The position numbers and the translations under genes were made by a program. Positions 4,214 to 60,792 of a stretch of 64,000 nt of DNA are shown here, piece by piece; positions within the stretch are counted from its first letter, which is position 1; each line of letters opens with the position of its first letter. Source of the stretch: Mytilus galloprovincialis (lineage: Eukaryota; Mollusca; Bivalvia; Mytilida; Mytilidae); assembly GCF_965363235.1 (NCBI RefSeq), contig NC_134838.1:7197001-7261000 (forward strand), given 5' to 3'. Under the pieces are notes generated by a model. It searched no databases and was not told the DNA's origin. It saw nothing but the letters and a program-made list of their open reading frames with translations.

Positions 4214-7200
4214 AGGGAAATTCCGCGATTTTTTACTTATCATATAATTATGTTCATCTTAACATAAAAAACACATTTGCAAAGTTTTAAATTTATATTC
4301 CTTCTAATAACGGAGAAAATCAAGTATTTGTAACTTTTTTGGTTGAATTCTCGAGTGGGTCGTGACGTATTAGCCCGATTTATTGAATTCTGGGAAAAAA
4401 TAAAATCTGTTTAACTCTTATAGCTTATCGACAATATACGTAATTAAAAGCGCACAGCTGACGAATGGTCGAAGTTATAAACCACAATATAAGAATGAAC
4501 GAAAGTGAATATGCATATATATACCGTTTTGTATTGATTGAATTAAACTCCTATAAAATTATCTCTAGTAAATGTTTTTGAATAAATTTAATTAATTATT
4601 GTTGAGATTTTTTTCATAAAATATTTATTGAACATTTTTACTGATATTGAACTGAAAATATTTCAGTTCTATTTACCGTTATTGTTTTGATAATCATTTC
4701 AATGCAACTAATGTGTGAGCAGAGTGTGTATATTATTTTGTAAAGGTCACTGTATATTTCTCGGCTTGAGGTCAATTCGTTTACCTTGTAGCTATTTAGC
4801 CGCAGGTGTGAGTTCAAGCGTACACAGGTATAAATGTTGTTATTTGGAAAGGATAAATAGAAAGGATTAGAGTATATGCTGTCATGATGTTAATACACTA
4901 AGATTAAATACACGATGAGAATAAAGATACAATAATTAAATTGTGTAAATTAATTGAAAATAAAATTCAGATTCGTAATTCCGAAAGTGTATAAAAATAA
5001 AAGGAAACAATTTTTGATTACTTTCTTAGCGGCAATTGGCGTAAAGATTCAAATATGAAGCAAAAAATAGTAGTTTTAATCTTTAATAAAAACTAAATGC
5101 AATATTACCCAATTTGATATACCATTGTACATCTGTTTGATATCATTGACTTTACCGGAATTTCTTAACTTGTATTCAAATCTGGCTGTGTTTAAATGCT
5201 AATAAAACTATTGCATTTTTAAAGTTTTTAATTGACAAAAAAATACAACATACAACATGCATAATTTTTTTTTAGTTTCTTTTTAACATTTTATTCTTAC
5301 ATAATTAAATTCATTTGACAATCATTTACACGAACTTTTTGTGAAAAGAATACTAATTATCTAAGCTAAGGCATTATATCTTTTGAGGATTTTTGAGGAT
5401 TTTTTTTAAAATTCTATGATAATAGTTGTGCAATGTTGAACATGATAGCCGTCATTAATCCAAATAAGTAATACAGTAGTTGTAATAAAAGTTATACTTT
5501 AGTCATGCATTACAGATATTGACGAATTTATAATAGTTCGTTCATACATCGTTGTTCATGAAACAATCATTATTAGTATACATGTAAGTTTCCTGACGTA
5601 TAAGAGCCATTGCGGATGAGCTCCAGAGAAATCAGACTAGTTGCGTTTCGTTCGTTTGTTTGTTGGGAAAGGAGAGGAAATGCAACCGCTTGTACAGATA
5701 AACGACAGAATTACCATACAAGCATTTATAGTCAACACAATCAGAAAGAGTTCCCATCGTTAGACGGGGAATATGAAGGCTTCCAAGAATGAACAAGTGA
5801 CATGTCTAACTCTGAACAGTTAGAGAACAGACTATCGACATCGAACGCTTGTTCTTGATATTTGAAACTGTATGCATATATATACGTATACGTTTATGAT
5901 ATAGTGATGAGTTCTGACAAAAACTAAATTCCTTCATGGTTATATCTTGCCATACGTTTATATTGGTTTGTAAGGTGATTACTCAAAATCGTTATTTGAA
6001 AATCCTGTTTGTGAGATGTAGATTCATTTCAATACAGAAATTTCGTCTATATATTTCACAAGTGTATAACACGGAGAAGCTCTGAAGGTTCATTACTCCC
6101 ATTTTGTTTGGGTGTGAACCATCGATGTTTACAGCAATATCAAGGAATAAGGTGATGATGGTAGAAAGAACTATGGGCGTCATGTGGCAAATATTACATG
6201 CATATCGGACAATGAGTTGTCAATCTGTATGAAAAGTTTTCCAATACAACCATATTATTGAGAAGGAATGTTTACATGCTATACGCTTGTACTAGTATTA
6301 CAGGGTTCTTGTGGCGTTCACCTTAGACACACATCGTTTTAACGATGTTTAAAAAAAGACAGAACCAATTTAATGTCATATTTCCCTATTTTTTAAATAT
6401 AACTAAAATTCTTTTATCTGACAAGAATATCCCTATTTAGCGAACAAGTAATTTATTCTTTTTTCGGTTATTGAATACCAAGAAAGAAAATAAATCCCGA
6501 AATTAATTTGAAACTTTGATACTCAAAAGTTTCCCAGCAAAATATTCACATCCCCTGGGGATAATTAGTGTTCGTCCAGTGGCATATATAACAATTGTGA
6601 TGACGAATTCCTTCCTTTGTTTGAGAACAATCTTATTGAAATATAAATCTGTGATTTTCCTAGGTCCACAGCTTCAATGAACCAAAGCAAAAGTTATACA
6701 TCGACCTGTATTTAAATCAAATTGGTTCTCTTCTTCTTTTGGTATACAACTGTAGTCTATCGACATTCGATGATTACATACTGTTGGCATACGTTGGCTA
6801 GTCTATTTACAACACTTTTACCCCTATTCATTCAAAATATATGTTTTTTTCTTATGTTCAATCAGAGACATATATACACATGTGTATATATGTCTCTGGT
6901 TCAATGTATACACGTATATATTTTAAATTGCGCTATAGTTCCGTAACTTTATATCCAGTCGTATAAACGAATCGTCGGCAAGTGCGTACATTTTTTTAAA
7001 TCAATATTTCTGGTCTGTTCCAATTTGTCCTTCACTATTGACAATGACTATATATTACATTTTCCCAAATTCACCCTTGGAAAAAATATTTAAATAGATT
7101 TTAATTTCATCAAATCTTATTTTTTGGGTATTATTTATATATTATGAATTATATTCTTTACACCAGAAATGTTATTTATAAACAAGCGTATGAGTTTAGT

Positions 7201-7902
7201 AATGACAAGTAAGACAGAGTTGTATATTATACATCTGATAGTTCAAAATGGAAAGTTATAAGTTATAAGTTATCAGCCGTGTACACTGATCAATACCTGC
7301 AGAAGTGAAACGATGCATGAACTTGCAAGCCCGACAGGAAATCGCTTGAATACCTGGACGTGTCACCTCACACCCCTCACAATACCTTTGGAAGTAATAC
7401 CTTTAGCCATGCTGGTGATCAGATAAGGGAAGATCAAAATATATTTGAAAAAAGTTTATTACTTTAAAGAATTATGAACAAATTAGATTTTCGAAAACAA
7501 TTTTCACGGAACACTTATTTATGATTTCAACTTTGACTTTTCACCTAATTCCAATATCAACAGTTTAAAAACAACAGACCATGGTAATTTAAAAAAAGTA
7601 AGAATATTTTCCGTATCAAGTTAGTTAGTCGTATTAAACAACCGTACGATTGACAAGATATCGACACGCAATTACGACTACATCGGTTACTGTAGTTTTG
7701 TTTCTTTGTGGTTTATAGACATATCGTTTTTATTCATCGGGAAAGAAGACAAGATGGCGGATCTCGGAGAATTGATACTCTAAATTTAAAATCGATGGTG
7801 ATCGCTTATCTAGCGGAATAAAACTTTAATATCTATGAATTTGAACATTTTTATACAGAATGAACATAATATCAATTTTTGATTTTTTTGCGAAGTTTCC
7901 CT
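4214..7902. mobile_element. TTAA-flanked non-autonomous DNA transposon, copy 1
   Basis: A 3689-bp insertion flanked by TTAA on both sides (4210-4213, 7903-7906). The intact target is visible in unit 1 at 1862-1865. The ends are inverted repeats: left AGGGAAATTCCGCGATTTTT, right (reversed) AGGGAAACTTCGCAAAAA. TTAA targeting occurs in piggyBac and Kolobok elements; an AG start fits Kolobok slightly better, from memory. No frame longer than about 75 codons exists, so there is no transposase. A related copy lies at 24101-26885. Confidence 0.9.
6863..6898. mobile_element. 36-bp perfect palindrome inserted with 7-bp duplication
   Basis: CAGAGACATATATACACA is followed directly by its exact reverse complement, with no loop. 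GTTCAAT flanks both sides (6856-6862 and 6899-6905). The related transposon copy 2 (near 25900) lacks the palindrome and has a single flank copy, so this is an insertion. Confidence 0.8.
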
Positions 7903-8019
7903 TTAAACTTTCATGACAATCTAATTCAAACAGATCGACAAGAAAATCTGTGTGCTTGTTCGACAAGTTTTAATCATTTGTTTCAAATAAATTGTACTTT
8001 TTGATATATAAATCATACA

Positions 8020-8833
8020 GTATTGAACCCATATTGCTGAAATCAACGAGAGTACACGAAAAGAATCATATTCCTACATTCTTGCGCGAAAAAAAAATTG
8101 TTACAAAAGCTGAGACGATCATGAGTTTGATCTGAAATCACATCTCCATACTATTAAGTTTTGATGTACGGTATCCTCGTTTCCTCTCAGATATAACAAC
8201 TTGTTCAATAAACAATGTTTTGGAGTTAAATTTAAGTTTAGCCGTATCGTTCAGGATGCCGAACCGGAAATAATCCCAAGAGGTTAAATGAAAAAAGTCC
8301 ATTTCATATAATCTCAACCAATCAATTACCGACCGTGCAAGGGCTGTATAGCCAGTCAAGGTCGTTAAAAACTTCCATTTGTTGTCCAGTCACGCCCCAG
8401 TCAGTACAGTTAAACGGATGTGTTTGGTCAGCTCATGATTATCTGCAAACACCAATTATGTCATTGCATTGAAAAGCATAACGAATTAATTATGGACTTC
8501 ATGAGATCACTCAACGCTGTACCGTCCAAGCCTGCTCCAAAACGATGTGGGAGTGTTTGATGTCCCGGCAACGTCTGAGGTCACTGTATTTTCATATTGT
8601 CTTCTTCTTCTTAGATATGGTAGTTAAACTCAATAATGAGTACTCAATACTTGTGCGTTACGTAGGTGTTGGTAATGTATCAGTACCTATAATTAATTAT
8701 ATGTGGTTGTGTTTTTCCTATGGCTGTCTGGAAGATGTCCTTTCTCCTTCTCATTGATTGACAGTTAATTATCATAATTCTATTTTTTTCTGTATCAGAT
8801 GGTAGTGGTCTTCTTTTGTGTTATGTTGTTTTC
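8020..8833. other. Unassigned AT-rich intergenic DNA
   Basis: This sits between the truncated H1-5S unit and a LINE-like fragment. I see only short open frames without family features and no clear repeat ends. Confidence 0.5.
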
Positions 8834-9570
8834 TTAGTTATGGTTGATTTTTGTGAAGATGTCATTCAATTGAGGCGAACCTGGATTACTATAGTTCAAT
8901 GACTCATTACTTTCATCAAATGTGTTATATATACTTAAAATTTCAGGTATTTTAAAACATTGTTTCAAATAAGCTAGTGGCAAAACTTGGTAGTCCACAA
9001 TTTGTACAATACCAGGAGCAATCTGAACCAATTAAGCGATTATAGATGTCATCGCTTATATTTTCACAGTTATTTTGGAACCATGTGTCACACTTATCAC
9101 TCATGACAGCTTGGTCTATAGTTTTGACTGATTGGGGACCGGGGAAAATTTGGTTGATTATTACTGGTGTGTGACTGGTGAGGCCCTCCTTATGTCAGTC
9201 AGCTGAGTCCCTCTGGTTCTCCACGACATGTTTTTGGTGTACCAATAGCTGTATCCCTGGTTTGCGTCTGACAGATGTTTTCTACGCTTGTACTGGTGGT
9301 AGGTTCAGGGGTTGCAGCGGAAGCAACGGCTTTTTTGGAGTCCATCCACTGGGTGAAACGCTCGGCATTTCGTCTCCTGGTAGATGGATGCTTCAGTTTC
9401 CTTTCAAGGGGCGGCTTAGGTTTCCTGGATGTAGTGTACGGGTCCTTAGCCTTGATTCAGGTGAGTTGGACTGTAACATGGACAGTACTGGCAGTAAATT
9501 TCCACTTAGGTTATTTTCCTTCTTACTTCATGGTGGCTAAAAGCGCTTTCAAATCGTTCGGTAATTCCAT
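8834..9570 (-). mobile_element. Degraded non-LTR retrotransposon ORF1-like fragment
   Basis: The minus strand reads from an ATG at 9570 (MELPNDLKALL) through interrupted frames: a basic stretch KLKHPSTRRRNAERFTQW (within 9456-9199), a PHD-like finger with CDTWFQNNC, NISDDIY and WYCTNCGLPSF (about 9120-8952), and a Ser/Asn-rich tail (GSPQLNDIF). A PHD finger followed by CGLPxF is, from memory, typical of ORF1 of several mollusc and cnidarian LINEs. It is broken by several stops and a frame change, so it is a relic. The plus-strand frames over the same DNA are shadows. Confidence 0.55.
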
Positions 9571-10270
9571 AATAATTGTTTACGAGGTTGACGGTTCAGA
9601 ATACGGCTCCGCTCGGCAAAAGATTATATACTACGCCAACCCTGTCCATAATCCTAGATCCGCCCCTGTAATTTATATACTAAAAACAAATATGGCAGGC
9701 TTGACATAATAATATCTGTATAAGTAACGAATTGTCATAAAAAATACACGGGAAATGACAAGTTAACGAAATCTAGTCTGATCAATCATTTTAGTTTACA
9801 TTTAAAAAAAAAAGTGCAAGTAAATGGAGGGGCGGGCGTACGCCCTCTATGCCCCCTTTGGGTTTTCTTCAAGGACCAGTCCACCAGGGAAAAAAAGATT
9901 TCGCGAACACTGAATATCAAATATATATATCACAACAACAGTCTCTGTTTTTTTTTATTATCTGCATATACACTGAAACGTATGTCTTACTCTCGTAAGA
10001 GTTCACAAACAAACCTATAGGAAGAATAGAAAACGAAGGATGGCAATAGCAACGTTTATGAAATCTTAACGTAGAAAAGTATCACTGAGAAGTAAAACAT
10101 TACCTTGGGATTACGGTTCTTCCGGTCAGTTATAAGGATTTTTTTTAGAATACAACTCCGTGATCTTATCGGGGACTTTATTTAAATTCTACGGAACAGG
10201 CTCACGGTAAAGAGGACTTGCTTCTATAGTTTCTTCCTCCACTTTACTGAGTACTCATATTCATTTAGAA
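9571..10270. other. Intergenic, no gene seen
   Basis: This includes what may be the 5' leader of the minus-strand LINE relic (to about 9700) and otherwise AT-rich DNA with short meaningless frames. Confidence 0.4.
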
Positions 10271-10352
10271 TCCACTTTGATCAAACACCAATTTTCAAAG
10301 CACTTAATCATGGGCGCAAAATCTGCAACTGGTTTGAACCATAACATGCAGC

Positions 10353-10622
10353 TTGTATCGAAAACTCTTCCTATCAATCGTTGGAGGTACACCCTGGTTA
10401 TCAATACGACAGCTAAGTATCCGTGTATTCACCTCTATAAACATGATAAAATGGGATGGTCTTACCTCTGAACCATTCCCTATGCAACAAAGAGTTAAAC
10501 AGGGTGGACTTTTAAGTTCCGTTTCATGTGTCTATCTGACCGGTTTATTAAAATATATTGGAGACACTAATTATGGAGCATACACATGTGCTGATGATAT
10601 TGCATTGATAGCAAACTCATAA
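10353..10622 (+). mobile_element. LINE reverse transcriptase fragment
   Basis: The translation contains the LINE RT signatures KWDGLTSEPFPMQQ and VKQGGLLSS, and the catalytic motif as CADDIALIANS (usually YADD or FADD). About 45 codons normally between QGG.LS and the ADD box are shortened. Only this central RT block is present, with no endonuclease or downstream domain, so it is a dead fragment. It is on the opposite strand from the ORF1-like relic at 8834-9570. Confidence 0.7.
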
Positions 10623-10641
10623 ACAGAACGGTAAGTGAGGT

Positions 10642-10760
10642 ACATTAGACGTTAGACATTAGACATTATTTTATTATACCAATCATGGGCCCTTGTCGGG
10701 CAAGATACAAAAACATCATAATACAATGATTATATAAACATTAGTGAAATACACAATAAG
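10642..10760 (-). repeat. Probable LINE 3' tail
   Basis: On the minus strand, GGGCCCATGATTGGTATAAT leads into AATAAAATAATG and a short (TGTCTAA)n run, a common layout at bivalve LINE 3' ends (compare 60610-60752). The assignment rests on layout only. Confidence 0.4.
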
Positions 10761-11309
10761 TAATACACAAATAATAAATTGATAATATGAGCAATGTAGG
10801 ATATAATTATGGTAAGAGGCATTGAGTGTAATGAGGCCGATTTAATATTAAAAGAATATGATATAAAGTTTATTTTAAACGGAAACAAAAAAGTAAAAAA
10901 AGTAAAATTAGAACCGGGTATGTATCAACTATTTATCTTCTGAAAGAAGGAGGGGGACTGAGGTATTGTTTTATTTCGAAGTCAGATTTTTTTTTGCGCG
11001 TGTCCACATGTTTATAAAGTTTTTCGACGCTATCAATCATTTTTTTTTTCAAACTTTAACAGATCTTAACACTATATTAAGGTATCGTATGGCGAAAATC
11101 TTGATTCAGATTATTTGTAGTCATCTGCTTTACCAGAATATTTTATTTTCATCAAATTGGGGATCACTCAGTATATTTTTTTTTGGGGGGGGGGGGGGGA
11201 TATTGGTGTAGGACTATACGACAAACGTTCTTTTTCGTTATACTTGTATTCTCTGTATGACCGATATGCCCCGGCGGCTTGTAGTCCCTTAATTGACAAT
11301 AACATATAT
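10761..11309. other. Intergenic with homopolymer runs
   Basis: AT-rich DNA with a T-run followed by a run of about 15 G near 11176-11200. No gene or repeat ends recognised. Confidence 0.5.
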
Positions 11310-13072
11310 GGGTCATTTTCAAAAAATGTCGAATTTTCAGTACACCCATGCTAATTTTTTTTATTTCTAATGGAAATTTCAGTTGTAATGGTTTAAATGA
11401 AAGCTTGTCGGATTTGTGATTCAGAACATTAATAATAAACACACCTTACATCTATTTTGATAAGATTAAACTGCATTTAAGGCCGATTTTGGGGGTATTT
11501 GTGTGCGTACATTGTCAGAAAAACACATTTCAAATGATTTTTTTCCGATTTTCTGATCGCCTTGATATCTGCAAAAGGGACTTTTTAAGTACGTTAATTA
11601 TAATTCTAACGAAAAATCGTAGCTTCTTTATCATTGTATGTAACAGATTATCTACAAACTAAATTCAATCAGCGTACAGGAGGTTCATGTCTATCCTGTT
11701 ACCGCTACTTAAATCAGTCGTTAAATTATTCTCCCTATGAATATTGAATCAGTCAGTGTTGATTTCAAAAATGCAAAGTAATCTTTACATTTAAAACGCC
11801 TCGTTTCTTGAACGACAGTGTAGAGAAAAGAAATTTCAAGACATTTAGTGAAAAAAATAGAGCGTACTTTTTTTCATGTCTATGCTGTTACCAACCATTT
11901 TGATTAATTACACTAACAGTATGGTTGTAAAAAGTGCAATAACGTGTTGGAAACCAAATTCACAATAGAAAACCATAATCATTTCACCGAAGGGAGTAGT
12001 TATTTCACAACAGCAATCAAAAACGAAGAAATTTGTCTATCCTGTTATGTCTATCCTGTTACTATGGTTGCTATGGTTACAGTAACAGGATAGACAATTA
12101 TAGACAAAAACGTCGTTAATTTTTTTATCTTAACATGTAGGTGGAAAACGAATGAAATATTTCATTGTTTGAACTCATCTTAAGGTAATAACGTCTTAAT
12201 CTTCCCAATTAAGCATTTGCAGGTGCAATACTGATATCGGTAACAGGATAGACAAAAAGGTAACAGGATAGACTTTTATATAGTGATATATCAGAAACGT
12301 ACGTTCCTGTTACCAACGAAATAAAGAGAAAAGTAAATTAACTTATGAGGGATTTACTTGATGTTGGGTTTATTTGAAAGGGTGAAAAAAGGCCGAACAA
12401 TATAAATTGCTATCTTAGACTTGCATTACTGGTGGTAATTTTTACAACCTTTGAAAACCAATTTTTAGAGCCATTTTTCAGTACAACCTAGAAAATTGGC
12501 AAATAATCTATTATTTTACAGAATGAATATATATATAGAAGTTTATTCTCTTGAAAACCATCTAATTGGTAACGTAAAACAAGTTTAACATTTTATCTAA
12601 ACCTGTTCTTAATAACCCAAAATTTCTTTTGAAAATGGTAACAGGATAGACAAAATATTGTACCACCGATCAAAAAATGTTTCAAGATATTCTTGTATGA
12701 CATCATTAAGATTGCATCTTTTAATATGTTGTTCTTAAAGTACTATTTGTTTTGATTTGCTTAGGGACGACATCAAAAGATCGATGTAGGATAAAAAACT
12801 TAAATCAAATAGTTTGGGGGTGGGGGGGTTAAAATTCTGCAAGTTTTGTATATCTAAAATCGATTTTTACATATATCCCTATTATTGGTAAATCAATTTT
12901 TCCAAAATTAAGTTAAGAGGGGGGTGTGGGGATCAGTGAAAAAACTATGTGAATAAAGTTTTTTATCCTACATTGAACTTTTGATGTCGTCCCTTATGTA
13001 GAGGGTTGTTTGAATTAGTAACTTTTAATAAATTTTTCAATTTCAAAATTCGACATTTTTTGAAAATGACCC
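11310..13072. mobile_element. 1.76-kb inverted-repeat element with mirrored 14-bp motif array
   Basis: The ends are a perfect inverted repeat of about 28 bp starting GGGTCATTTTCAAAAAATGT, with ATAT on each side (11306-11309, 13073-13076) as a likely target duplication. There is no coding frame. Inside are eight copies of GTCTATCCTGTTAC (two with one mismatch): forward at 11689, 11878, 12035 and 12049; reversed at 12082, 12240, 12260 and 12638. The superfamily cannot be assigned from the ends. A second MITE is nested at 12764-12993. Confidence 0.8.
12764..12993. mobile_element. Nested 230-bp MITE
   Basis: Inverted ends GGGACGACATCAAAAGATCG (left) and reversed GGGACGACATCAAAAGTTCA (right) extend about 38 bp into ATGTAGGATAAAAAACTT. 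TTA flanks both sides (12761-12763, 12994-12996). It contains G-rich and C-rich stretches. It lies inside the 1.76-kb element and is therefore younger. Confidence 0.8.
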
Positions 13073-13184
13073 ATATCTTATCTTATTTTATTGTTCAACG
13101 GTAAGAAAAGAAACAATACATTCGATAACTGTATACGTCTCTGAACTTGGAAAATTCAGCACTAAATATAGCCATCGGTCATAC

Positions 13185-13249
13185 CAGAGACATATATACA
13201 TAGACTGATAGAGATATCAGAGACAAGTCTCTGAGATATAGTCTCCGTG
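13185..13249. mobile_element. 65-bp CAGAGAC-ended insertion
   Basis: It begins CAGAGACATATATAC and ends GATATAGTCTCCGTG, with an inner palindrome CAGAGACAAGTCTCTG. Flanks are GTCATAC (13178-13184) and GTCTTAC (13250-13256), a 7-bp duplication with one mismatch. It is a longer relative of the palindromes at 6863, 37401 and 60753. Confidence 0.55.
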
Positions 13250-13610
13250 GTCTTACGACAAGGAATGATTAAACAACCGGACATTGTATTGTACGTTTCT
13301 TTCCCCAATACTACAGGGTTCTCTACGGATATCTGGGCTACTTATTATTATAAACTAAAATATCTTTTAACGGATATATCACAGGTAATTGTTTCTTGCG
13401 TATGTAAAACAACTATAATAAATTCAATCTTTACCGAGTATGTTTGGCAATTTTTTCATAAAGGTCATGAAGGAAGTAACAGAGAATGACATGACAGAGT
13501 AACCGGATTATAATATTGACATTCATTCGTTATATTCAGCTTATCTTATTGTAAAAAGGAGAGATCGATAAATTTATGATTTCAGAGAGGGACTGAATTA
13601 ATCATTTGGG

Positions 13611-13735: not shown

Positions 13736-13746
13736 TGGTGGTATCA

Positions 13747-17437: not shown

Positions 17438-20400
17438 GTAAGTCAAAATAAATACCTTTAAAATTTCTAAATTACTAGTAATAAGTAATCAGTAGGTCAA
17501 GTCAAAATGAATAGCTCTTACCAGTAATTAATAATCAGATTAATTGATAAAATAGAGTATGGGAATGGGGAATATGTCAAGGAAACAGCAACCTGACCCA
17601 AAAGCAGACAACAGCTTAGGCCACCAATGGTTCTTCTACGCAGTGAGAAAAACCCTCACCTGCGTGTGGTCCTCAGCTGGCCCCTAAATAAAAGTGTGTA
17701 CTAGTTCATTGAAAATGGACGCACACAAAACTCCAAAACATATAAATGAACTAAAATTAATAAACATACAAGACTTACAAAGGCCAGACTCTGTCAGAGG
17801 CTCCTGACTTAGGGACAGGCGCAAAAATGTGGCGGGGTTAAAAATGTTTTGTGAGATCTCAACCCCCTTTTTACCTCCAGCCAATGAAGAATTAGAAACT
17901 CATAGTGATACGCACACTAAAAATCAGTATCAAAGAAGTCAGAGTCCCATGTCAGAAAAGGTAAAAAAAGAAACTGAGTAAAATGACAATGATACATAAA
18001 TTAAAACAGGACTACTAGCAGTTACTGACATGCCAACTCCAGACCTCAATTAAACTGATTGAAATATTATGTCTTCATTATATGAAAATCAAGTACAATC
18101 CCTCTAGTAGCATCAAAAAGAAGAAATATATAAGAAGAACATAACCTGTATCATGCTATACTGTATTACAATCTGTGAAAATGAAAGGATACAGTTGTTG
18201 TACACAAGACAATTATACCTCTGTTAATGGGTTACTTAAAACTGAACAAAAAGAGTAAAACACACACATCTTTTAAAGTGAAGAGGGTTGTAAGCGTTCA
18301 GGTCTGAGACAAAATGTTGCTAAATGGTTCTGTGCTGTGAGAGTTTGTTCTTATTGAATATACAAGCCATAAATGCTCCCTGGGAGTCTCAAGTTAAATT
18401 CTATATTCTATGAAGTTGTGTTATTAATTATAGGTGGGAGAGCAAGAGAATTTTATGATGCCAATGATAAATATAATGATTATAGGCAGGTAAGCAAGAA
18501 ATATAATAATTATACTTGTTATAGGCAGACTTGGGGTAATTGTAATTGTAATCGTTAATCAGCTGTAATTGATTACAATTTTTCAAGTAATCACTGTAAT
18601 CATTAATCAGTCAAAAATCTGATTACATGTTATTTAATTTAATCAATTACTTTTCAAAATACCCTGTAATCCTGATTACTTTTTGATTACATTCTGATTA
18701 CAATGAAAAAAATCTAAAATTGTGTTTTTGGTCATTAAAAGAACCTCTTTGTTATTCATATTCAAATTGATAAATATTTAACATGCTAAAATAGTTTGGT
18801 TGACTTTAAGCCTGTCTTCTTCAGTAAAAAAATAAACTGTTACAGTATTGAAAAGTCATCATTAGCCTAAGCAGAGACATATAATAAAATTATATATCTT
18901 GTATATTCATTGTTTTGTAATGATCTTCATATTAATATTTGATAATAACTGTTATATATTCAAGTAATACTTTTCTTTAACACTGAATTATAATCTTTTG
19001 TTAATTTTTGTGATTTTTGTCAACTTTGAATTGACAGGTATGAGACTAATTAAGGTTTGTTTTTATTGCAATTACCAATTGAGTATAGCTGTAGGGAAAT
19101 ATATATGATAAAAGATAAATCAGACATGAAAATTTATCTAATTAGCACTAACAAAATTGGGACAAATATGTTGTTTAAATTTTTTTAAAAATGTATTTGG
19201 ACTGGACATGTAAAATGCAATGATTTTTAGTACTTATATATTGTTTAAAATTTGATTAAACATTTCTATTAAAATTTAACATAGTTTTAACTGGTAACTT
19301 TATTTCATCCATATTTTAACTTCCATAAACTGCACCTTGGAATACATATAAGTATGAAAGAGGTCAGAAAACAAACAAAAAACTCTTTATTAATCTTTAT
19401 TAAATTTAATTCAAAATAATTCAGAGACCATTGGTGATAAAGTGTAATGTATAATAACTAGTGACACAATGTTCATGTATGTATATGTAGGGAAATTTGG
19501 TGTTTATTAAAAAGATGAAGTTTGAAGTTATCATTTTATAATGTATCATATACATTACTTTCTCAAAAATGCTATAGATATATTGAATGTTTATTCATTC
19601 ACATCATTCAAAATGTTTTGTTTTTAAATTCATTGTAATCAGATGTAATCATGATTACTTTGCCAATGTAATCATTAATTTAATCAGATATTTTCAGAAA
19701 TGATGTAATCATTAATTTAATTTAATCGTACAAATGACAAAGTAATTGTAATTTAATCAATTACATTGCAAGTAATCGGACCCATCTCTGTAGGCAGGTA
19801 AGAACACTTCATTGTTTATACATCATGTACATTGGGGAAAAATAGTAAATTTAATTTGTCAAATATAAACTGGAAGAAATGCAACACTAGAAAATGAATC
19901 GATCTTTGTATCCCATCTTTATATCATAAATACCTGAATAAATGATTTGTTAAAACACTCATGTGACTAAAACATACTTTAAAAGAAAAAAAGGAAAATT
20001 AAACCAGAAGTGAGTCTTTTTATGTTGTGATGTTACACGTAAGTCTGACAGGAATCTGATGTTTAGTAGTTGATTTTCCTTATTTGAATGGTTTTACACT
20101 AGTAATTTTTGGGCCCCTTTATAGCTTGCTGTTTGGTGTGAGCCAAGGCTCTGAGTTGAAGACTGTATTTTGATCAATAATGGTTAACTTTTACAAATTA
20201 TGACTTGGATGGAGAGTTGTCTTATTAGCACACATACCACATCTTCTTATCTCTATTTTAAGCAATAGTGTAATTAATGCAGACATTCTGATTAATTTAT
20301 TTTTCAGTTATGTGACAAACAAAGGGATAGTGTAATTAATATAGACATTTTTTTTTCAGTTGTTGGACAAACATAGAGATGCATTACAAGCAGGAAGTGG

Positions 20401-23400: not shown

Positions 23401-26400
23401 TCACTTGGCGTCCGTCGTCTTCCGTCCGTCGTAAACTATTTCAAAGATCTTCTCCTCTGTAACTACTGAACCAATTCAAACCAAACTTCATCTGATTGAT
23501 TCCTAGGGTATCTAGAATAAAGTTTATGTTTTAATTTCAATTTCATCAAAAAACATGGCCGCCATGGCTAAAAATAGAACATAGGGGTAAAATGCAGTTT
23601 TTAGCCTATAACTCAAAAACCAAAGCATTTAGAGCAAATCTGACATGTGTTAAAATTGTTTATCAGGTCAAGATCTATCTGCCCTGAAATTTTCAGATGA
23701 ATCGGACAACCCGTTGTTAGGTTGCTGCCCCTGAATTGGTAATTTTAAGGAAATTTTGCTGTTTTGGGTTATTATCAAGAATATTATTATAGATAGAGAT
23801 AAACTGTAAACAGCAAAAATGTTCAGCAAAGTAAGATTTACTAATAAGTCATCATAGGAGTTATGGCCCTTTATAGTCAATTTTTAACCATTTTGCGTAA
23901 ATCTTAATTATCTTTTACAATCTTCTCCTCTCAAACTACTGGGCCAAATTGAACCAAACTTGGCAACAATCATCATTGGGGTAACTAGTTTAAAAAATGA
24001 GGTTGAATGGTTTATCAGGTCAAGTTCCATCTGCCCTGAAATTTTCATATGAATCAGACAACCGATTGTTAGGTTGCTGCCTCTGAATTGGTTATTTTAA
24101 AGGGATAATTCGCGATTTTTCACTTTTCATCTTATTATGTTCATAATACCATGAAAAACATATTCACCAAGTTTTATTTTGATATGAAATCTAATAAAGA
24201 AGAAAATTGGGAATTATTAATTTTATTTTTTTAAACTTCCTGACTTATGTGACGTAGTTTAAGTCTTTGATGCATGCCGGGAGTGAAAATATCTCATTTA
24301 AGTCTTGTTCGTTAACCATCTACTAACGCGATTTAAAGCGCATCGACGACTTTTGGTGTAGCTATTAACCAACTAAAAATAAGTGATAGCCATGCAACTT
24401 TTAAAATTAGATCATGTTGATTTTTTAAAACGAATTTTAATAATAAAAGTAAATCATACAATAGAACATTTTTATGAATTTTTTTTCTAAAAATACTTTA
24501 AACAAACATATGAAACTGACATGATCGATAGTGTATTAAAAATACATGTTTGTATTCTGACCTTTTTGCTTCATTCCAGCAATCATTTTCACTTGCTTGT
24601 ACGGTGGAAACAATAAAATGTGTATTGTTTTGTGACACCTAAAGAATGTGGAATGCGTAGTTTAACTCAAGGTAATTAAAAGATTAGCATTATGTAATTC
24701 TAATCTTTTGATCCTCATTCAGTGAAATCTAGGCGTCACGGTTCACTGGCATTTCAGGTGTGAAGAACATTTCGTATCAATTGTAAACGGGAGTCAGACA
24801 AAGTTTCAGACACATGAATGTAAAAAAAAATAATTAAAATTAATTAACGGGAATAATAAGATCGCACAATAACTGGATAGCTGTTGTATATTTTTATATT
24901 TTGCATAAGATCACTTTTAATGAATTATGACTTTTGAATACTTTAGTAACGATAAAATACTGAATTATTTTAATTGAAGTATTTATAAATAAAAATAGCC
25001 TTCTAAACACGAGTTTATGAACTAAAAATTGTACTATTTCAAATAAGGATCGGCAGCCTTAAATATTTCAAACAGATCATTAACAATTGCAATTATATAT
25101 TTTAGTCAATCCAAAGTGATCTTTAATTACCTATTTAGGAATTAATGTGCTCATCAAAATATTTTAAATCTCACAACACATGAATACTTCAGATATTTGA
25201 AAAAAGATGTTTTAAAAAAAATGACAGGAAATTAAGGGATCTAATTGGAATGGAATCAACAAATTACGAACAGATATGCTTTTTAAGTGTGAAAAACATC
25301 AACAAAATTTATACATAATCGGGAATGTCCTTCTTAAAATACTCTTCGTCTCACACCGTAACTATATATAATACTTTAGCTATTTGACCAACGATGTATA
25401 AAAAAAAATGAACGAATTAAATGTCATCTTTCCCTATTTTGTAATGTAATTATAAGTCTGTTTCAACTGGCAAGAATACCAGTAAAGCAGACAAGCAGTT
25501 TATTCTGCAAATTGCTGTCACTGAATATCAAGAGCGAAAATAAATTCCGAAATTGATTTGAAACTTTGATACTCTATAGTTTTCCTGGAAAATATTCACA
25601 TCCCTCGGTATTAGTGTACTTCCAGTTGCGTATATATTACATGCATGTCGGAACAATTGTGATGATGGCGAATTTCTTCCTTTTTTCGAGAACAATCTAA
25701 TTGATATATAAATGTCCATAACTTCGATGAGCCAAATAAAGTTATATATCGACCAGTATTTAAATCTCTTCTTCTTCTTCTTCTTTTGGTATACAATAGT
25801 CTATCGACATTTGATGATTACATACTGTTGGCATACGTGAACTTGTCATTTTACAAAACTTTTACCCCAATTTACGCAAAATGTATGTTTCTTTCTTATG
25901 TTCTATGTAAACATGTATATATTTTAATTTGCGCTATAGTTCCGTAACTTATAATCCAGGCGTATATACGAATGGTCGACAAGTGCGTACATTTTTTTAA
26001 ATCAATATTTCTGGCCTTCACCATTGACAACGAGTATATGTTACATTTTACCAAATTTACACTTGGAAAAAATACGTATATAGATTTTTATTTCATCAAA
26101 TCTGTTTTTTTTTTTTTTTTTTTGGTATTATTTATATTTTATGAATAAATTTCTTTTCACCAGAAATGTTATTCATAAACAAGCGTATGAGTTTAGTAAT
26201 ATCACTTTCGGACACGCAAGATAGAGATGTATATTATACACCTAATAGTTCAAAATGGAAAGTTATAAGTTATCGGCCGTGTACACTTATCAATACACTA
26301 AGAAGTGAAACAATGCATGAATTTGCAAACTCGACAGGAAATCGCTTGAATACCTGGACGTGTCACCTCACACCCCCTCCAATACCTTTGGGAGTAATAC

Positions 26401-35400: not shown

Positions 35401-38400
35401 AATAAGCTTTAATTTTGAAAAGACATTAACACAATAGTTTAAGTTATAGATACAATGGATAACTCTGGGCTTATGGTTTCTTTTTCAAGAATCAACGCTT
35501 ATCCATTGTATCTATATCACATACCATATGTTGAGTTGGAATTGAAGTCTTTTGTTTACAGATATATTCAGCTGTTGTTGATAGAAGTCCGTTTCTAGTA
35601 GAAGAAATGGAGAATTATTTTGTTGGTGGAGTAAATGATATGGTTGGGTGGACACAGCGAAGTTGGAACAATGTAGTCACAATGCTTAACAAGGGAACTG
35701 AGTAATTATCATGTGTTATGTAAAAATAAGTCACCTTTAATTGCTTCTATCTTTTATATCCTGAAACCTTACAGTTTGTATGTTTAGGTTTTATGTTTAA
35801 ATATAAGTCTGTTATCTTTTAAATTGATTTATCAGTTAGGTTAATACAACATTGTTTGTTATGTTCATTTTGATTGGATAATGTCACCAATTTTCATGTC
35901 ATTTTCATTAAAAAATCGATATACCAATATTGCATTTTAAGCTCCGACAGCAACATTTGTAGATTTGATGGAAGCAAATATGCTCCGCGAAAGCGTCGCA
36001 AGTAAACTTAATTTGCGACCATCAAATCACTAATTGATTCTGTCGGAGCGATAAATACAATACAGTTATCTCCTAAATAGACTGATGGGATTTTTTTTTC
36101 ATTTACATAATAGCTTGAGGAACCCCCTTGGAGCAACATAGGATACAAAATATTCTGTAACCAAAAGTTGCCACTGATGACATTAAATCCTCAAACACAA
36201 AACCTTTCTGGATCAGATGTGGCGTCCTAAAAAAATTAGTCTAAAAACTAAAAAAATATTGAAAATTTGACAAAAACTGACGTTACTTCATCATTTTTAA
36301 AGTGAATTATGTCAAAAATAGATTATTATGTATTGTAGTATTTTGGCCTGACTAAAAAACCATTCAAAACCATTGGACAATTGTAACCATCATGAACTGA
36401 CTCTTATGTATTGCCATACCAGGTTTTTAGGCAGTTAAGCTGCCTTATGCGAGCACCCTGGATTTGTGTTCTACCCAATAAATGCTGAAATACGTGCCAT
36501 TGTTATCATCTAGCTGGCTACTATGTTATTTATAACTTATTGAACAGTTTTTTCATACTTTTCATTCTGGATTACAAAAAATATGACCAGAAAAACCTTA
36601 AATGATTGTCGATTTCCCCAAAAGTTTTGAAGTTGCACATAGGAAGTAGAGCACAATAGGAATCCTTATGTAGTTTATTATCCCCTGAGCTTTTGGCTAA
36701 GATGTCAAAGAACAAATGTATGAAATATTTAATCGCCGTAAATCTCTAAAGACAAGTAGTTAAGATTTCCCAAATTGCAAAAGTCGTAGGAATATTGTTT
36801 GTCGTCAATACGTAGTCAACTACGTCAGTAGTCTATTAATATAAGTTCAACTGATCATGCTGTTGGCGGCAATTTTGAATTAGAAGACGAAATTTTCGTA
36901 TCTTTTCAATTTGGACGCAGGGGTTCAAATTAGCGGTTGTCCGAGGTCTGCGACATTCCACTTTTGCAGTCGGACTTTCTACTTGGTTACTAGCTACATG
37001 TACGCCCGACATGCCCGACGGACCTTGATAGAAAATAAAAAATAACTTTGCAAACGTTTTTACCAAAGTTTCGATCTAATAAACGATCTCAAACTTATTT
37101 TCCTCATTACTATTTGTGACAGCGATGTTCAATTTGTTCAACCGCTAGCTTTATACAGAAAATCGCCGACATATAATGTGTAAATCCGAGTAAAATCGTA
37201 TCTCACTATCTGTCAAAAACAACATTGAAAACAAAATGGCTGCCGCGAGAAGACAATTACAATATAGGATCCGATTCCGGAAGCGGATAAGGGTAATCCC
37301 GGGTTTTGGCTTTGAACTAAAAAAATCCAGACAGGTGACAAAATACATCTTTGCATGGTAAAGAAATATAAAGACTAGAATTGAAAACCAAAACATATAT
37401 CAGAGACATATAATACATTTTATTATATGTCTCTGCATATATGTAAAAGAAAGAAAAAGCAGAAAATATTTTGTACACCAATTTTAATGTCAAAATCCAA
37501 TACAATGTGACAGCTGGGAACAGTTTATCTGACAATACATGTATATATGTTCCTGGTAACAGTATAAATTTTCTTTATCAGTGATAAATGTTGGTAATGC
37601 ATGTTAGATGCTTTTAAGGGGGCTCCTGGGTATAAATTAATTTTTTTTTCTAATATAGGATTTCGCTATATTTTTTCATAAATGAACTTTATCATATACT
37701 TAAAAGAAAAATGAAATAAAAAAATGGGGTCACCGTTCATTTAAGCTTAAATCTGCCTCTAGAAGAAGCATACATTTTTGTTAATGTCCTTTTTTTCTGT
37801 TGAACTAATAGGAGAAAAAGAGGAAATATCGAAATAAGAAAATAACCTAATATAAGAAATCGCTTAAATTTTACAATTATTTAGTTTATGTACAGCTTAT
37901 TTGAAAACAATAATAAAAAATATAGGTCACCGATGAGTTAAAAAAGATATTTCAAATGTAAGGCCAAAAAATGGCATTTTTGCACCAAAGGGAGATAATT
38001 TGGAGCTTTTTCAATTTTTAAAGTCATCTGGGGCCAAACCAAATATTTTTTTTGGGTTGTTTTTTGGACCATATCATAAAGTAACAACTAATAGTGTAAT
38101 AAATAAAATTCGTAATGAAAAAATAAAGGTTTAATTTTTTGCTAAAATTTTTGTACCCATGAGCCACCTTAAAGTTAAACATATTACTGCAATTTCAAGG
38201 GGTATTTTTTTCTTCTCAATTTTGATAGGTCATTTAAAATAGCTGGAAGTTTCTTATATAAAAAAAAAAAATGTGGTATGATTGCCAATGAGACAACTAT
38301 CCACAAGAGACCAAAATGACACAGACATTAACAACTATAGGTCATCGTACCGCCTTCAACAAGGAGCAAAGCCCATACACTATAGTCAGCTATAAAAGGC

Positions 38401-53400: not shown

Positions 53401-56400
53401 CGAACGAACGCACACACGGATTCACAGACTAGAAAACATAATGCCCATAAATGGGACATAAAAATTTATTGTTGAAAATGAAAGTATTGATATGGCATAA
53501 ATGAAGGTAGGGTAGAGATTAGAGGGAGGCAAGACCTTTTTCGGAATGTCGGGATCGGGTGTTTTTAAGCTCGAGCTTTGGGGATTGATCCTTACAGGAT
53601 CCGGGAATGGTTTTTTTTGGAAAAAAAAGTTTGTTTCCAGTTTTTGGAGAAAAAAATAATTTGTTTTTGATTCTGAGAAAAAAAAATTGTTTGTTTCACC
53701 CTCAGCTGCCACTATATGTAATGCTAAAATTGAAAGAAAAAAATTGTTTTCGACTTGTCGCGAAAAAAATATATTGTTTTTCGCCGCAGGCGAAAAAAAA
53801 AATTTGTCCAGAAAAAAAAACCATAGCCCCCCCAGAAAATCAAATGGTTGCTGCCTAAGCAGTTACATTTATTTCATGTTTGAAGCGGTGCCAATTTTTA
53901 ATTTGATTTGCCTTTTACCAAAAGATTCATTGTAGCAAAGGAGAAGAATAATTGTGGTCTGAGGCCAGAAACATGAAAATAATTTAATTTAACGGAAAGG
54001 AAACAAATATCGGACTTTGGATAAAGGGAGAGTGCTTTTTATACCTTTTATGAAATTCTCCATACATAATATCTTTTACAAAAAATCATCCAACAACAGT
54101 TTACCTGCTGTATATATGCCCGCGATTTCGTGGGTGTGTTCTAGTAGTATTTAATGGAATGACACACTGTATACAGGGGCGGATGCAGGAATTTTCGAAA
54201 GGGGGGTGCTAACCCAGGGCAAAGGGGGGGTGCATGGGGGGTGCAAAACATATGTCCCGATACAAATGCATTGATCGGCAAAAATAAAGGGGGGGGTGCG
54301 CACCCCCGGAACCCCCCCCCTGGATCCGCCACTGGTATATATTTCAACAGACACACATTTTCATTTTACACTAAAGTTAAATGCCAATATACTTAATTTA
54401 AATGAAATTAAAAACCAATTGTTCAGAGAACAATTGAAGGTCTTTCCACTAGTAAAGATCTATTTTGATATTGAAATATGAAAAATCAGTTTAAAATGTT
54501 AATTCCTATGGCTTTATGATGTATTAATGTGAATTTAAAGCAAAGGTGAAAATTTAGAACGTCCTATTAACCTATGACCTTGACCTCAATTTCAAGGTCA
54601 CAAACCAAGGACCTTAAATCAAAAGACCCTAGGTCTTTAATATGTTTGGTTAATGAGTAATATCACTTTACGCATAATTCTAAATGTAAGATGGGCAAAA
54701 ACTCCCATTTATTGTCTGCGCACCCTTTCAACCAAAATATACAAGTAAGGACATGTCGCAACTAACAATTTATGAAAAATTATTTGTCGATATGTCATAC
54801 GGTTTTTGGAAATAAGTGAAAATAAGCCAAAATCAAAATTTAGAATATGACCTTGACCTTTGACCTTGACCTCATTTTCATTTTTTTGGACCAAGGACCT
54901 CAAATCTGAAGACCCTAGGTCTCTATCACTTATGGTTTACCATTTAGAAATGCATTTCACTTAATTCAATGGAAAAGGGGGAATAACTCTCATATGGAGT
55001 CTCCGTAAAGCTTCGGTCCAAATGAATATCCTAATCCTTAAGATATAATAAGCAATTTGGTAAAATAAATTTGTCGTAATCTTTTACGGTTGCGAAGGAG
55101 TAGTGGCCACAAGAAAAACAGTGTTTGGGGAGATAACTCTTACAATGTAAAGTATTTTGTTACGCAGTTGTAAATTTTAAAGCGTATAAACTATACGATG
55201 CCATATTCCAAATATCTAAGCGACATCTTTTGAAACATCAATACTACGCAAGAAAAAAAATTAGGCGGAAGAAAAAAAAAAAAAATAATAATAATAATAA
55301 TCAGAACAAATTCAATAGGTCTTTCCACGGAAAGGTGGAAAGACCTAAATATGTGCTTCACAAATGAAGATCTTTTGTTTCATTTCATCAGTCTTTTCAA
55401 TAACAATATTCTCTAAGGATTATGTACCCTTGTGTTTATTCAATGCTAAACATATGGAAAATTTATAGAAAATCTACAGCCGTTCCCATTGTATTCTCAT
55501 ATTTGGCAATTCGACACTTGTTAGATAGAGGATAATTGCATGCAGTGCTAGCAATGATTTCCTTAAAACAAGTTTATTAATTTAGTTATCGGTGAAAACA
55601 AATATAAATATGGATCAAATCAAGTACACCTTTAATGGTGCACTCGACTTTAGTGACTCAGCTCAAGGTTGCAATGAAACAGTAAATAATAATGCTTTGC
55701 AGGAAGTTTCCCCTTGGTATATATACAAAATGGTCTGTCTTTATTATTCATTATGTTTGTTGTTTTGACACTATTGCAGTTTGAAAAGTTCGTAATAAAC
55801 TGGCTACAGAAGGGGTCATGAACCTTAAGATTTTATATAGTATTACATGGATATGTTGGGGCCTTGGTGGCCGAGTGGTCTTAGTAGTTACTACTGTAAT
55901 CACTAGCCAGTCAACACTGGGGTTGTGAGTTTGCTCATGCGGGTGCACTGGACTCCAATCTTAATTGACTAGGATTGTCAGTTTTCCTATTAAAGGTCGG
56001 TGGTTTTCTCTGGGCACTCCAGCTTCCTCCACCAATAAAAACTTGCTGCCACGAAATAGCCTAAATGTGGTGCTAAAAAATTGCGTTAAAACACCAAAAA
56101 TCAAATCAAATCATTACTACACGCACATGTTTTATTTTGAGGATAACATGTATATATTTGATTTAACATTTATTCATGTATGTATTTGATTAAAGATAAC
56201 ATGTATGTTTTATATCTATTTTAGGCAAACTTCACATCAGACTCTTTAAATGAGCAAAGTAATAATGGACATTTTGTTTATAATGTGTCTGACAAACAAG
56301 GGGTATGTATTTTTATGCCCCAACCACTATAGTAGAGGGGCGATATGTTTTTCTGGTCTTGTGGGTCCATTCTTCTGTTTTTCTGTCTGTTTGTCCGTCT

Positions 56401-57254: not shown

Positions 57255-57562
57255 TTGTATAGTAGTAATACAAAATACAAGGATAAAGGTGATAATCAGA
57301 GTAAACACTAACATGTAAAAGATGCAAAAGATGTCACCTCTGACTTGAAGATTGATTTACATTGAAATTACTGCTGTTAGATACTGCTAAACTTCTGTCA
57401 TAATAGAGACATTGTAGCTCTCGATCATAAACTGTACTCAGAACTCAGTTCAATATTTGTACTTAAAACATCAAGTCCAGTATTCTGGTTGGCTGAGTAG
57501 GATAATAGTACTCCAAATGTTATATCCACAAAGCCTGGATACAAGTTTAACTCTATCTTAGA

Positions 57563-58021
57563 AGAGGGTGGTAAAGGGGGGTGCTTGCACGGAAAAAACA
57601 TGAAATAAGACATAATTTCACGTTGAACTTAAAATAATTTCTGTCATGCACGTTGCACGAAAAATAAATACTTTGATGTGAACCTTTTGTGACTGAGTCA
57701 CTGTCTTCTTGTATATATTAACTCTATGTTTTACTTGATATTCCCAATTTAGTATACATATTTATGATATAATTGGTTCATGGCTTTTAAAAAAGTATTT
57801 CTTGACGATCCTTGCCAAGTCTTTGAATTTTATTTGAAAAATTCCGAGCGCGCAAAGTAAGCATTTGGAAATCATGATGCAATTAAAATTAAATAAGCAA
57901 ACACATTGAACGAGGCACCTGTCTTGCACGACTGAACGTCAAATAAAAAAGTAAAAACATGTTGAACGCGTAATAAAAAACGGCGATCACGTTGCACAAA
58001 AATAACCCTTTACCACCCTCT
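57563..58021. mobile_element. 459-bp MITE in the GPLD1 3' flank
   Basis: Inverted ends AGAGGGTGGTAAAGGG on both sides, flanked by TAGA (57559-57562, 58022-58025). CACGTTGCAC-like motifs recur inside. It lies 300 bp after the GPLD1 stop, so it may be in the 3' UTR; its AATAAA at 57663-57668 could serve as a poly(A) signal. Confidence 0.8.
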
Positions 58022-58025
58022 TAGA

Positions 58026-60304
58026 ATCAAGCCTATCTGTTCTACATCATGGGTTTGTAATGGGCAATGGAACAAATTCTTCATCAGTTGAGATTTTTCC
58101 AGGTAAAACAAGAGATACTCAGGACTTCTCCCACAAGAGTTGTCTTTCTTTGAGATTTATTTCATAGTTTACTTAGCATCCTTATGAAACATAATCATGC
58201 TGCTCAGTATATACTATAGTATACATATTGATAAATTGATATTTTTTTTTAAATACCGGTACATTCCATTAAATATACTTTATTTGACCAATATTTCAAG
58301 CTCTTCCCTTTTGAGAAAGCAAATTGGTATAATGTTATTTGTATAATTTAGAGTATATTATATTCAAGATATAATCTCCATCAATAGAAAATAGAGTGAG
58401 TGGTGTGTTCTCTCTATATATTACTTTTGACGTTAACAACCGTTTAACATCTCCAACATTGGACCTTCACCTGATGACGTCCTTGACTACATTACACTTT
58501 CTGTTTACTGTCCAGTTTGGCTGAAAGCTCCTTTATTTGTGATGTTTATCAGGCTAGTTATAAAAGCAAGAGCAGCCTGAAGTGACACTTTAACTTGCAC
58601 AGCCAACAAACCATTGAATTGTGCAGGTACACCGGAGATATTCACTTACTTTTATTAATGATAGGGTTGCCTGACCTACCCATGGAGATTAACTGGAAAG
58701 CCCATACACCACCATGCAAACAATGTATTAGTAAAAAAAAAGAGGACATCATTGGCCGCATGTAGGCAGCCATCTATGTTTGCAGATAAATATGCAAGCA
58801 ACACGTTACTTTTAACTATGATTTATTTTTATATGTTATTTTGATATTAATAAATATTATTTATTTTGATCTGTTTTTGGTTGTTACTAATACCCACTCA
58901 CTTTTATTACCTCTTAGAGACTGTAATTAAGTTCAGAATTATTTAATTATATACAATGTAATACTTCTGTCTGGTCTATTCTTTCACTGGACTAACTCAT
59001 CCACCAGAAAAATTATCCTTTGGAAAACTCATCCTCATGGAAATTTTAACTGCTGGATAACACATTCGCCATTATCTCATCCACAGGTTAACCACACAAC
59101 TGAGAGGTGACACCACTTGGTTGATATCACAGGCGGTTAATACAACTACCGGTAAACATAACAACCGGTTAACATAACCACCAGTTTTACCTACCACTGG
59201 TTATACACAGGGTACCCTTGGATTATGAAGAAAATTATCTATCTGAACAGCTTGTCGTCAACTATCAACAGATCACTGAAGAAGGTCCATTATAGGACAG
59301 AAACTTGTTAGGCTTTATCATCAGGCCCTGTTATTAAGTTGAACTGGTATATATTTTCCTATATTTTATTCACAATCTCCACCGTTAAAAACTGTCTGCC
59401 ATGATTAAGAGTACTGAAAGTGGCATTTAATACCAAATAATCAATTAATTATGCTGTGTTTGGGTAGATTTGGAAACATTACAATTTTTAGAGGAGTTAT
59501 ATTTATAACCAAAGGAATTTAAAATATAAGAAAGGGTAATTTATCATTGTAGGTCAAAATGCCTTATAAATAAATATGTTTGTAAATTTTTGTTTCAACT
59601 ATTTTTATGAAGATATTTATACAGTGTTTTAATCTATTTATTTGATATGAACATAATTTGTAACCAATACAAAAAATTGAAGTTCTTTCTGTCTTTCTTA
59701 AATTTTGTATCCTTGTTGCCAATAATATCTTCAGTTGGGTTAGGTAAACCTGAGACTATTATAACTATAGTAGTCTCAGGGTAAACATGGTCAATGCTAA
59801 AATCTATAATTCCTTTCATGCAGTTTTGTCCAATGCAGATCCGAACATTTTAAATGTATATAAATATAATAAAAATCATGCACAACCTATAAGTGTGCAG
59901 ACAGTGCACTCTTGGGATAATTCAAAGTCATGGCTCTTCTATTGTTTGTAAGTGTTTTACATTGTCAATTTTTGCAATCAGGTAGACAATCTGGGTTTCT
60001 ATACATAAATATGATATACAGTAACAAACGACAACTGACTCCTGACTTGGGACAGACACATAAGCTAGAATGTGACAGGGGTTAAACAAAAATTTTCTAT
60101 ATTTATAATACATATCCATCACTTCTGTGTGTGTTTCACCTAGTTTTGAGTGATTTAAACGACTCAGAGAAAATACCAAATTTTACTATCCATACAAATT
60201 TTTTGAGTAAAAAAATCATTCGAAATATGATCAAATATGCTTAGCTCATCAGATTGATATAAAGCAGAAAAAACATCTAACTAAAAAAAACAAATCTGAG
60301 AGTT
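58026..60304. other. GPLD1 3' flank, no gene seen
   Basis: AT-rich, possibly including the end of the 3' UTR. A short run of AACCGGTTAACATAACCACC-like repeats lies near 59140-59200. No clear element ends or coding frame. Confidence 0.45.
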
Positions 60305-60609
60305 AACTGGAAGGCACTGGCTGCGGTCACATGGAAATGTAACAATGATAAAATAATTATTGTTACATTGGAGACTATTTGCCGGAATGCAGGGTTGGGA
60401 AAGGATCTGATTACCAATGTAACAATAATATTTGTGTCTACGGTTGCATTGCGTTATTGTAAAATTAATGCACTTCAAAGTATGCTAGATTTATTAAACT
60501 TAAACCTTCTATAGTTTTGTTGCTTTTTTTTCACCAATAAGAAAGAAATTACGATCCCAAAATATCTGGACTCTAAAAATGTAAACACTGATTCCAGCAT
60601 GTCGGCAAA

Positions 60610-60752
60610 TGTCAACATTTTCAATTCAATTCAATTCAAAATATTTTATTGTTCAAATATCAAATGTACATTTAAACAAAGGGATTGGACAAAAGGCAGT
60701 GCCTATACAAATCCTTTCACATACAAGATGGATTGAATAACATGCATGATAG
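60610..60752 (-). mobile_element. LINE 3' tail nested in the long-TIR element
   Basis: On the minus strand, GGCACTGCCTTTTGTCCAAT leads to AATAAAATATTTTGAATTGA and a (TTGAA)n tail, a typical 3' end of a bivalve LINE truncated at its 5' side. Assignment from layout and memory. Confidence 0.5.
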
Positions 60753-60792
60753 CAGAGACATATAATACAATTTATTGTATTATATGTCTCTG
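60753..60792. mobile_element. 40-bp palindromic insertion with 7-bp duplication
   Basis: Arms CAGAGACATATAATACAA (18 bp, perfect) around TTTA. ATGATAG flanks both sides (60746-60752, 60793-60799). Confidence 0.8.

Follow-up and report, generated by a model that had tools for sequence, protein, structure and literature searches.

Palindromic insertions in a mussel genome as probable end-joined excision scars of P-superfamily transposons

Introduction

A 64,000-bp stretch of the genome of the mussel Mytilus galloprovincialis (RefSeq assembly GCF_965363235.1, contig NC_134838.1, positions 7,197,001 to 7,261,000; hereafter, the window) carries short palindromic insertions consisting of two inverted arms between 7-bp direct repeats, and raises the question of how an insertion that is little more than a hairpin comes to be there. 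A first, sequence-only reading took these hairpins for extreme internal-deletion derivatives of an unknown DNA transposon, moved in trans. Here we report that they are very probably the end-joined excision scars of cut-and-paste transposons of the P superfamily. Each arm corresponds to the outermost 18 (or 19) nucleotides (nt) of an inverted repeat, 31-32 nt long, at the end of a far larger element. Three features favour an origin by excision and end joining: the arms do not include the conserved inner half of that repeat, AGAGATTGGCAACT; the scars of an element with unlike ends have one arm of each; and both target duplications are retained together with the stubs between them.

Such short palindromes with target duplications are easily mistaken for miniature inverted-repeat transposable elements (MITEs) or missed. 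Read as scars, they are no new mobile unit but the archived traces of P-type excision, in which past departures of transposons are preserved like fossils. The excisions of a transposon become countable as well as its insertions, and the cut position and the repair outcome (blunt, short overlap or filler) can be read at many natural germline breaks, in an animal without an excision assay.

Results

Hairpin insertions in the window

The window contains the following features of the family (positions are those of the window):

6863-6898, unstranded: probable excision scar, TACACA subfamily, 18 + 18 nt of two ends; duplications 6856-6862 and 6899-6905 (GTTCAAT)
13185-13249, unstranded: decayed or composite copy; flanks GTCATAC 13178-13184 and GTCTTAC 13250-13256, one mismatch
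37401-37435, unstranded: probable excision scar, ATACAA subfamily; duplications 37394-37400 and 37436-37442 (CATATAT)
60753-60792, unstranded: probable excision scar, ATACAA subfamily, 18 + TTTA + 18 nt; duplications 60746-60752 and 60793-60799 (ATGATAG)
18872-18883, plus strand: lone CAGAGACATATA with no clear partner, possibly a decayed scar
25900-25906, unstranded: empty target site GTTCTAT, single copy, in the repeat that is sister to the one around the 6863 scar

Four loci had been described as carrying two inverted arms. This held for three of them, 6863-6898 (a perfect palindrome of 36 bp), 37401-37435 and 60753-60792, which have CAGAGACATATA inverted at both ends and whose 7-mer flanks GTTCAAT, CATATAT and ATGATAG are exact as described. 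At the fourth, 13185-13249, where the flanks differ by the one base already noted, the left arm CAGAGACATATATACA is good, the right end is degraded and reads ATATAGTCTCCGTG, and there is additional inner sequence including CAGAGACAAGTCTCTG. This last sequence, 16 bp long and bordered by AGATAT on each side, pairs the outer 7 nt with their inverse and is perhaps a second tiny scar or else a chance occurrence. Allowing up to two mismatches, CAGAGACATATA occurs 21 times in the window compared with 7.48 expected, a number reached in none of 100 shuffles. The proposal that a sister copy near 25900 represents the empty site was also borne out, since the sister repeat (25411-26398, 75.8% identical to the repeat around 6863) lacks the insert and has one GTTCTAT.

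Genome-wide counts and target duplications

We searched the window's own assembly (1.38 Gb). The strict arm pair was found at 1185 places and slightly shorter arms, CAGAGACATA-N0-30-TATGTCTCTG, at 1635, with no match for the reversed-pattern control in either search. Flanks were tabulated for 95 distinct copies, made up of the window and the loci fetched up to L135, mostly the first listed places on contig C1; part of this sample required an A eight bases downstream, a mild bias. An exact 7-bp flanking duplication was present in 65/95 copies, one with at most one mismatch in 75 and one with at most two in 83, compared with 0.19 exact and 1.3 with at most one mismatch expected from random re-pairing of the flanks. 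Exact repeats of other lengths were rare (one of 5 bp and three of 4 bp), and none of 6, 8, 9 or 10 bp was seen in the 95 copies. A scan for inverted 10-mers with exact direct-repeat flanks in the window and L001-L055 gave 35 cases at 7 bp, one at 6, none at 8 and two at 9; most of these loci had been fetched for this hairpin family, and it is the length specificity that is informative, the number being expected. Among 63 distinct sites, both strands counted, positions 2 and 6 were T and A, respectively, in 79% and position 1 was A or G in 75%, giving a palindromic 7-bp target consensus R-T-N-N-N-A-Y.

These figures bear on the view that the hairpins are not insertions but belong permanently to larger repeats, or are palindromes that arose by chance in AT-rich DNA. 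Some copies do lie at the same point of a repeat family, as seen from the recurring flanks GTGTAAT and CCCGTAT, and there is one tandem group. The excess of exact flanks, which comprise 63 distinct target sites, the empty reversed-pattern control and the empty sister site of the 6863 copy are all against it. As a general account this view is already refuted and hardly deserves credence, holding for the minority of hairpins copied within repeats; the earlier proposal of insertions with true 7-bp duplications and an excess of identical flanking 7-mers is upheld.

Larger elements that share the ends

Longer elements with the same ends, as the sequence-only reading had anticipated, are present. 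A search at longer spacing (55-85 bp in total) gave 40 places; some of these continue from the arm into AGAGATTGGCAACT, and some are true internal-deletion derivatives of this size that keep the full terminal repeats. Ends carrying this inner half numbered 81 on one strand and 87 on the other, and among 100 listed of them there were 20 convergent pairs less than 10 kb apart. Four such elements (L050-L053, on C4, C5 and C1; 3.5-4.35 kb) have identical terminal repeats of 31-32 bp and exact 7-bp duplications in 4/4 cases. Ten further end pairs gave nine exact 7-bp duplications and one of 8 bp (ATGAAAAC); over all large end pairs examined, 14/16 had a 7-bp duplication, one had 8 bp and one (on C7) showed no match. 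No long open frame was found in the mid-size elements read (L050-L053), and their two subfamilies have only their ends in common; we therefore rejected them as the autonomous element and consider them probably non-autonomous. L052 also contains internal tandem repeats of about 200 bp.

An element of 11,269 bp (C5:8628387-8639655) could be followed end to end and has CTACTGT at both sides. It contains a 917-residue open frame that matches PF21787 (1.1e-24), PF21788 (1.1e-19) and PF21789 (1.8e-8), all above the curated cut-offs, and that, among proteins of known structure, is closest to the Drosophila P transposase (6p5a, E 2.5e-14). In the alignment to the Drosophila chain the FDE motif, the D of TCDGASPN and the E of NQDPLEQHFG match, the first D (of FDE) aligning only in a weak separate stretch; we take the three aligned residues to be the catalytic D-D-E. 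With P-type RNase H halves and GTP-binding insertion domains in its predicted protein, and with terminal repeats of about 31 bp and duplications of 7 or 8 bp among the large elements, the large element is classed as a member of the P superfamily. The "unknown DNA transposon" of the earlier reading is thus replaced by a P-superfamily element.

The superfamily hAT was considered as well; the ends resemble those of hobo and Hermes. It was ruled out on the grounds that 0/95 copies had exact 8-bp duplications and that the transposase between matching ends is P-type; hAT domains were not searched for.

PF21787 had 51 matches in the assembly and none in 14 control genomes. At least four of these matches have one of the 100 listed ends within 12 kb; the listed ends span C1-C7 and the start of C8, a region with 31 of the 51 matches. 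A rough uniform expectation is 0.09, and one apparent tandem duplication accounts for two of the four. On C7, an apparent 12.3-kb tandem duplication (G000:C7:68045490-68074900) has a P transposase, a partner gene (see below) and a terminal repeat in each copy. At L055 a related transposase gene is split over two open frames (51% and 69% protein identity) and is accompanied by an ATACAA-type end. The outer ends of L137 and L055 were tried as one clean element and rejected, as the flanks ACTGCAT and CTAATAA do not match, probably owing to a tandem duplication.

The arms stop at a fixed depth and the junctions vary

We matched the arms of 94 copies (188 arms) to the terminal repeats of three subfamilies, leaving out a nested 43-bp match in L011. 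Fifty-four arms ended at exactly 18 nt, 24 at 17, one at 19 and one at 20. Genome-wide, 1111 arms matched the first 18 nt by a degenerate pattern, 537 on one strand and 574 on the other; seven of them run on with AGAGA, but five of these are the start of a second CAGAGACAT, leaving two true run-ons. The hairpins thus contain the outer part of the terminal repeat and almost never its conserved inner part. The 36-bp class corresponds to two 18-nt ends placed end to end, exactly so in 7/94 copies. Otherwise the joints were diverse: 24 were blunt, 27 overlapped by 1-6 nt and 43 had 2-18 unmatched letters, and 18/94 copies were perfect palindromes. Both arms belonged to the same subfamily in 52 of the 57 copies in which each was at least 14 nt long. 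One scar is nested in another of the same family (L011:1501-1570, C1:80201578-80201647), with 27 bp inserted at an ATAATAC target that sits in the terminal repeat itself.

The reading of the hairpins as micro-MITEs, that is, 20-50-bp extreme internal-deletion derivatives moved in trans by the P-type transposase, has to be weighed here. Like MITEs, the hairpins are short and non-coding, with inverted ends, target duplications and many copies; they have the outermost 12-18 nt of the element, and the 55-85-bp derivatives show that real internal deletions with full terminal repeats occur in this genome. Unlike MITEs, they have no common body, have a fixed arm end point and variable junctions, and are probably immobile. 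Random internal deletions would stop at many depths, whereas these arms end at 18 or 19 nt without the inner half that a full terminal repeat contains, with two exceptions in 1111, and their junctions differ between copies. Moreover, five copies are only 20-24 bp long and 4/5 of them have exact 7-bp duplications, yet they seem too short for two binding sites. We consider this explanation improbable; it also fits poorly with the mixed-arm scars, whose two arms correspond to the two ends of a single large element.

Probable scars of an element with unlike ends combine both ends

The 11.3-kb element on C5 has a left end reading CAGAGACATATAAATACA then GAGATTGG and an unlike right end reading inward CAGAGACATGTATACTAAA then GAGATGCG; end-joined scars of this element should therefore pair one arm of each. 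The left + right arm pattern was found at 44 places (21 and 23 by strand; control 0), whereas left + left occurred at none genome-wide. Forty of the 44 mixed scars were read, six of them duplicate loci. An exact 7-bp duplication was present in 28/40, and one with at most one mismatch in 34/40 (26/34 and 31/34 after removal of the duplicates). Four loci belonging to one repeat (L140, L171, L174 and L175) had instead an exact 8-bp duplication, GTCTTATC. Right arms measured 19 nt in 22/40 and were never longer; left arms measured 18 nt in 17/40 and 19 nt in five, and never reached 20. The commonest form, 18 nt of the left end and 19 nt of the right, accounted for 6/44 (two duplicating a neighbour), and both lengths place the inner cut at one point, one base into the conserved AGAGAT core. 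The scars suggest that the stagger is measured from this inner core motif and not from the tip.

A mixed make-up and a common cut point are hard to explain by movement in trans, and the claim of internal-deletion elements mobilised in this way was not supported. They are equally hard to explain by fold-back copying of one end. In that scenario one broken end would fold back and be copied, giving a self-templated palindrome with two like arms and no joining of ends. The perfect palindromes and the usual identity of subfamily between the two arms would fit such an origin, although an element with two identical ends, such as L050-L053, should leave like arms in any case, and scars of like-ended elements cannot discriminate. 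For the unlike-ended element fold-back copying predicts left + left scars, of which there are none against 44 left + right, and is already contradicted; the target duplication is also retained at both flanks. We regard this origin as less probable still than the micro-MITEs.

A model of staggered excision and end joining

Excision followed by end joining would proceed as follows. An element (up to about 11 kb as seen here) would insert at R-T-N-N-N-A-Y and duplicate 7 bp. On excision, we infer, the transposase would cut the two strands far apart: one at the tip of the element, the other within the 31-32-nt terminal repeat at each end, 18-19 nt in and one base into the AGAGAT core. Each chromosome end would retain a long 3' tail, the outer part of the terminal repeat, and end joining would fuse the tails bluntly, at a short overlap once they had been trimmed, or through a few filler letters. 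The resulting scar would consist of the two duplications enclosing no more than 18 nt of one end and no more than 18 or 19 nt of the other in inverted orientation; it would be hairpin-like because the two ends of the element are inverted repeats of each other, and, without the inner half of the repeat, it would presumably be immobile. An 18/19-nt stagger together with end joining would explain at once why there are hairpins, why the duplications are retained, why the arms end so sharply and why the junctions vary. GTP-dependent cleavage with a long staggered cut is a putative feature here, suggested by the arm limit of the scars.

Excisions of the fly P element leave terminal-repeat stubs of both ends between the target duplications. 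The mussel hairpins show the same footprint, with both duplications kept, stubs no longer than the inner cut distance and, for the unlike-ended element, one stub per element end. The Drosophila P transposase makes one cut at the tip and, on the opposite strand, another 17 bp into the 31-bp repeats, which leaves 17-nt 3' tails (PMC7776569; PMC10983969 describes the tail as well); repair of the donor break follows either a homologous or an end-joining route (PMC7776569). The mussel elements share with Drosophila P the three Pfam domains, the 6p5a match, repeats of about 31 bp and, by our reading, a cut inside the repeat with a long 3' tail, which is 17 nt in the fly (PMC7776569). They differ in having duplications of 7 rather than 8 bp, a probable stagger of 18/19 rather than 17 nt, no detected THAP domain, a convergent partner gene, and scars dispersed in very large number. 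Galileo is described as making 7-bp and occasionally 8-bp duplications at a palindromic target GTANTAC/GTATTAC (PMC4168063, PMC2775673). The mussel family resembles it in its 7-bp palindromic target, R-T-N-N-N-A-Y, with 8 bp in 1/10 end pairs and one mixed-scar repeat, and differs from it in that Galileo has very long repetitive terminal repeats and THAP, whereas here the repeats measure 31-32 bp and THAP was not found. Among the titles and abstract openings listed in searches of an open library we found no report of dispersed palindromic P-type scars or of a two-gene P element.

Several observations weigh against excision and end joining. Thirty of the 95 copies lack an exact 7-bp duplication (10 with one mismatch, eight with two and 12 with three or more), and some scars were copied within other repeats, so that the counts overstate the number of independent events. 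We saw no locus at which the full element, the scar and the empty site stand side by side. The stagger would be 18/19 nt and not the 17 of Drosophila P. Finally, a THAP domain had no match in six open frames; no C2CH pattern was found in the open frames of at least 30 residues in L054, L055, L136 and L137 either, a search that could miss a small exon.

A convergent partner gene

In the P-like elements of both transposase-bearing loci the opposite strand contains another gene, for which we identified these exons (a C2H2 finger exon and a 324-385-residue exon):

L054:9027-9998, minus strand: candidate partner gene exon
L136:552-944, minus strand: candidate partner gene exon
L055:6062-7216, minus strand: candidate partner gene exon
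L055:8748-9080, minus strand: candidate partner gene exon

Between the two loci the C2H2 finger exon is 57% identical and the 324-385-residue exon 41% identical. Finger models match the former weakly, below the curated cut-offs, and the latter had no Pfam match and, with the L055 copy alone as query, no PDB sequence match. Genome-wide, the long exon matches at 58 places, and 14 of the 51 transposase matches have one within 12 kb, in all 14 cases convergent with the transposase. The predicted structure of the product is poor (mean predicted local distance difference test score 46.4). By analogy, the partner is perhaps the end-binding part of the system, or an accessory as RAG2 is to RAG1.

Taken as a whole, we lean slightly towards a two-gene P lineage, with a transposase without detected THAP and a convergent partner, in which a cut fixed at the AGAGAT core 18 or 19 nt in, and frequent end-joined excision, would have left a record of germline break repair at more than 1000 places.

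Other hairpin families

A second hairpin family, CAAGGATTTGTATA...TATACAAATCCTTG, was noticed among the fetched loci. Pairs of CAAGGATTTGTATA occur at 811 places genome-wide, and the complete cases, including variants (L005, L007 twice, L011 and L019), have exact 7-bp duplications in 5/5. Three of its hairpins are:

L005:1529-1562: second-family (CAAGGATTTGTATA) hairpin
L007:1517-1548: second-family hairpin
L007:1932-1964: second-family hairpin

L017, L049 and L060 have one end only, and full-length copies of this family were not found. Some of its hairpins are nested inside CAGAGACATATA copies. A third type, consisting of CATGGAAGTATTATA and its inverse, lies at L006:1047-1083 with ATACACC at both sides.

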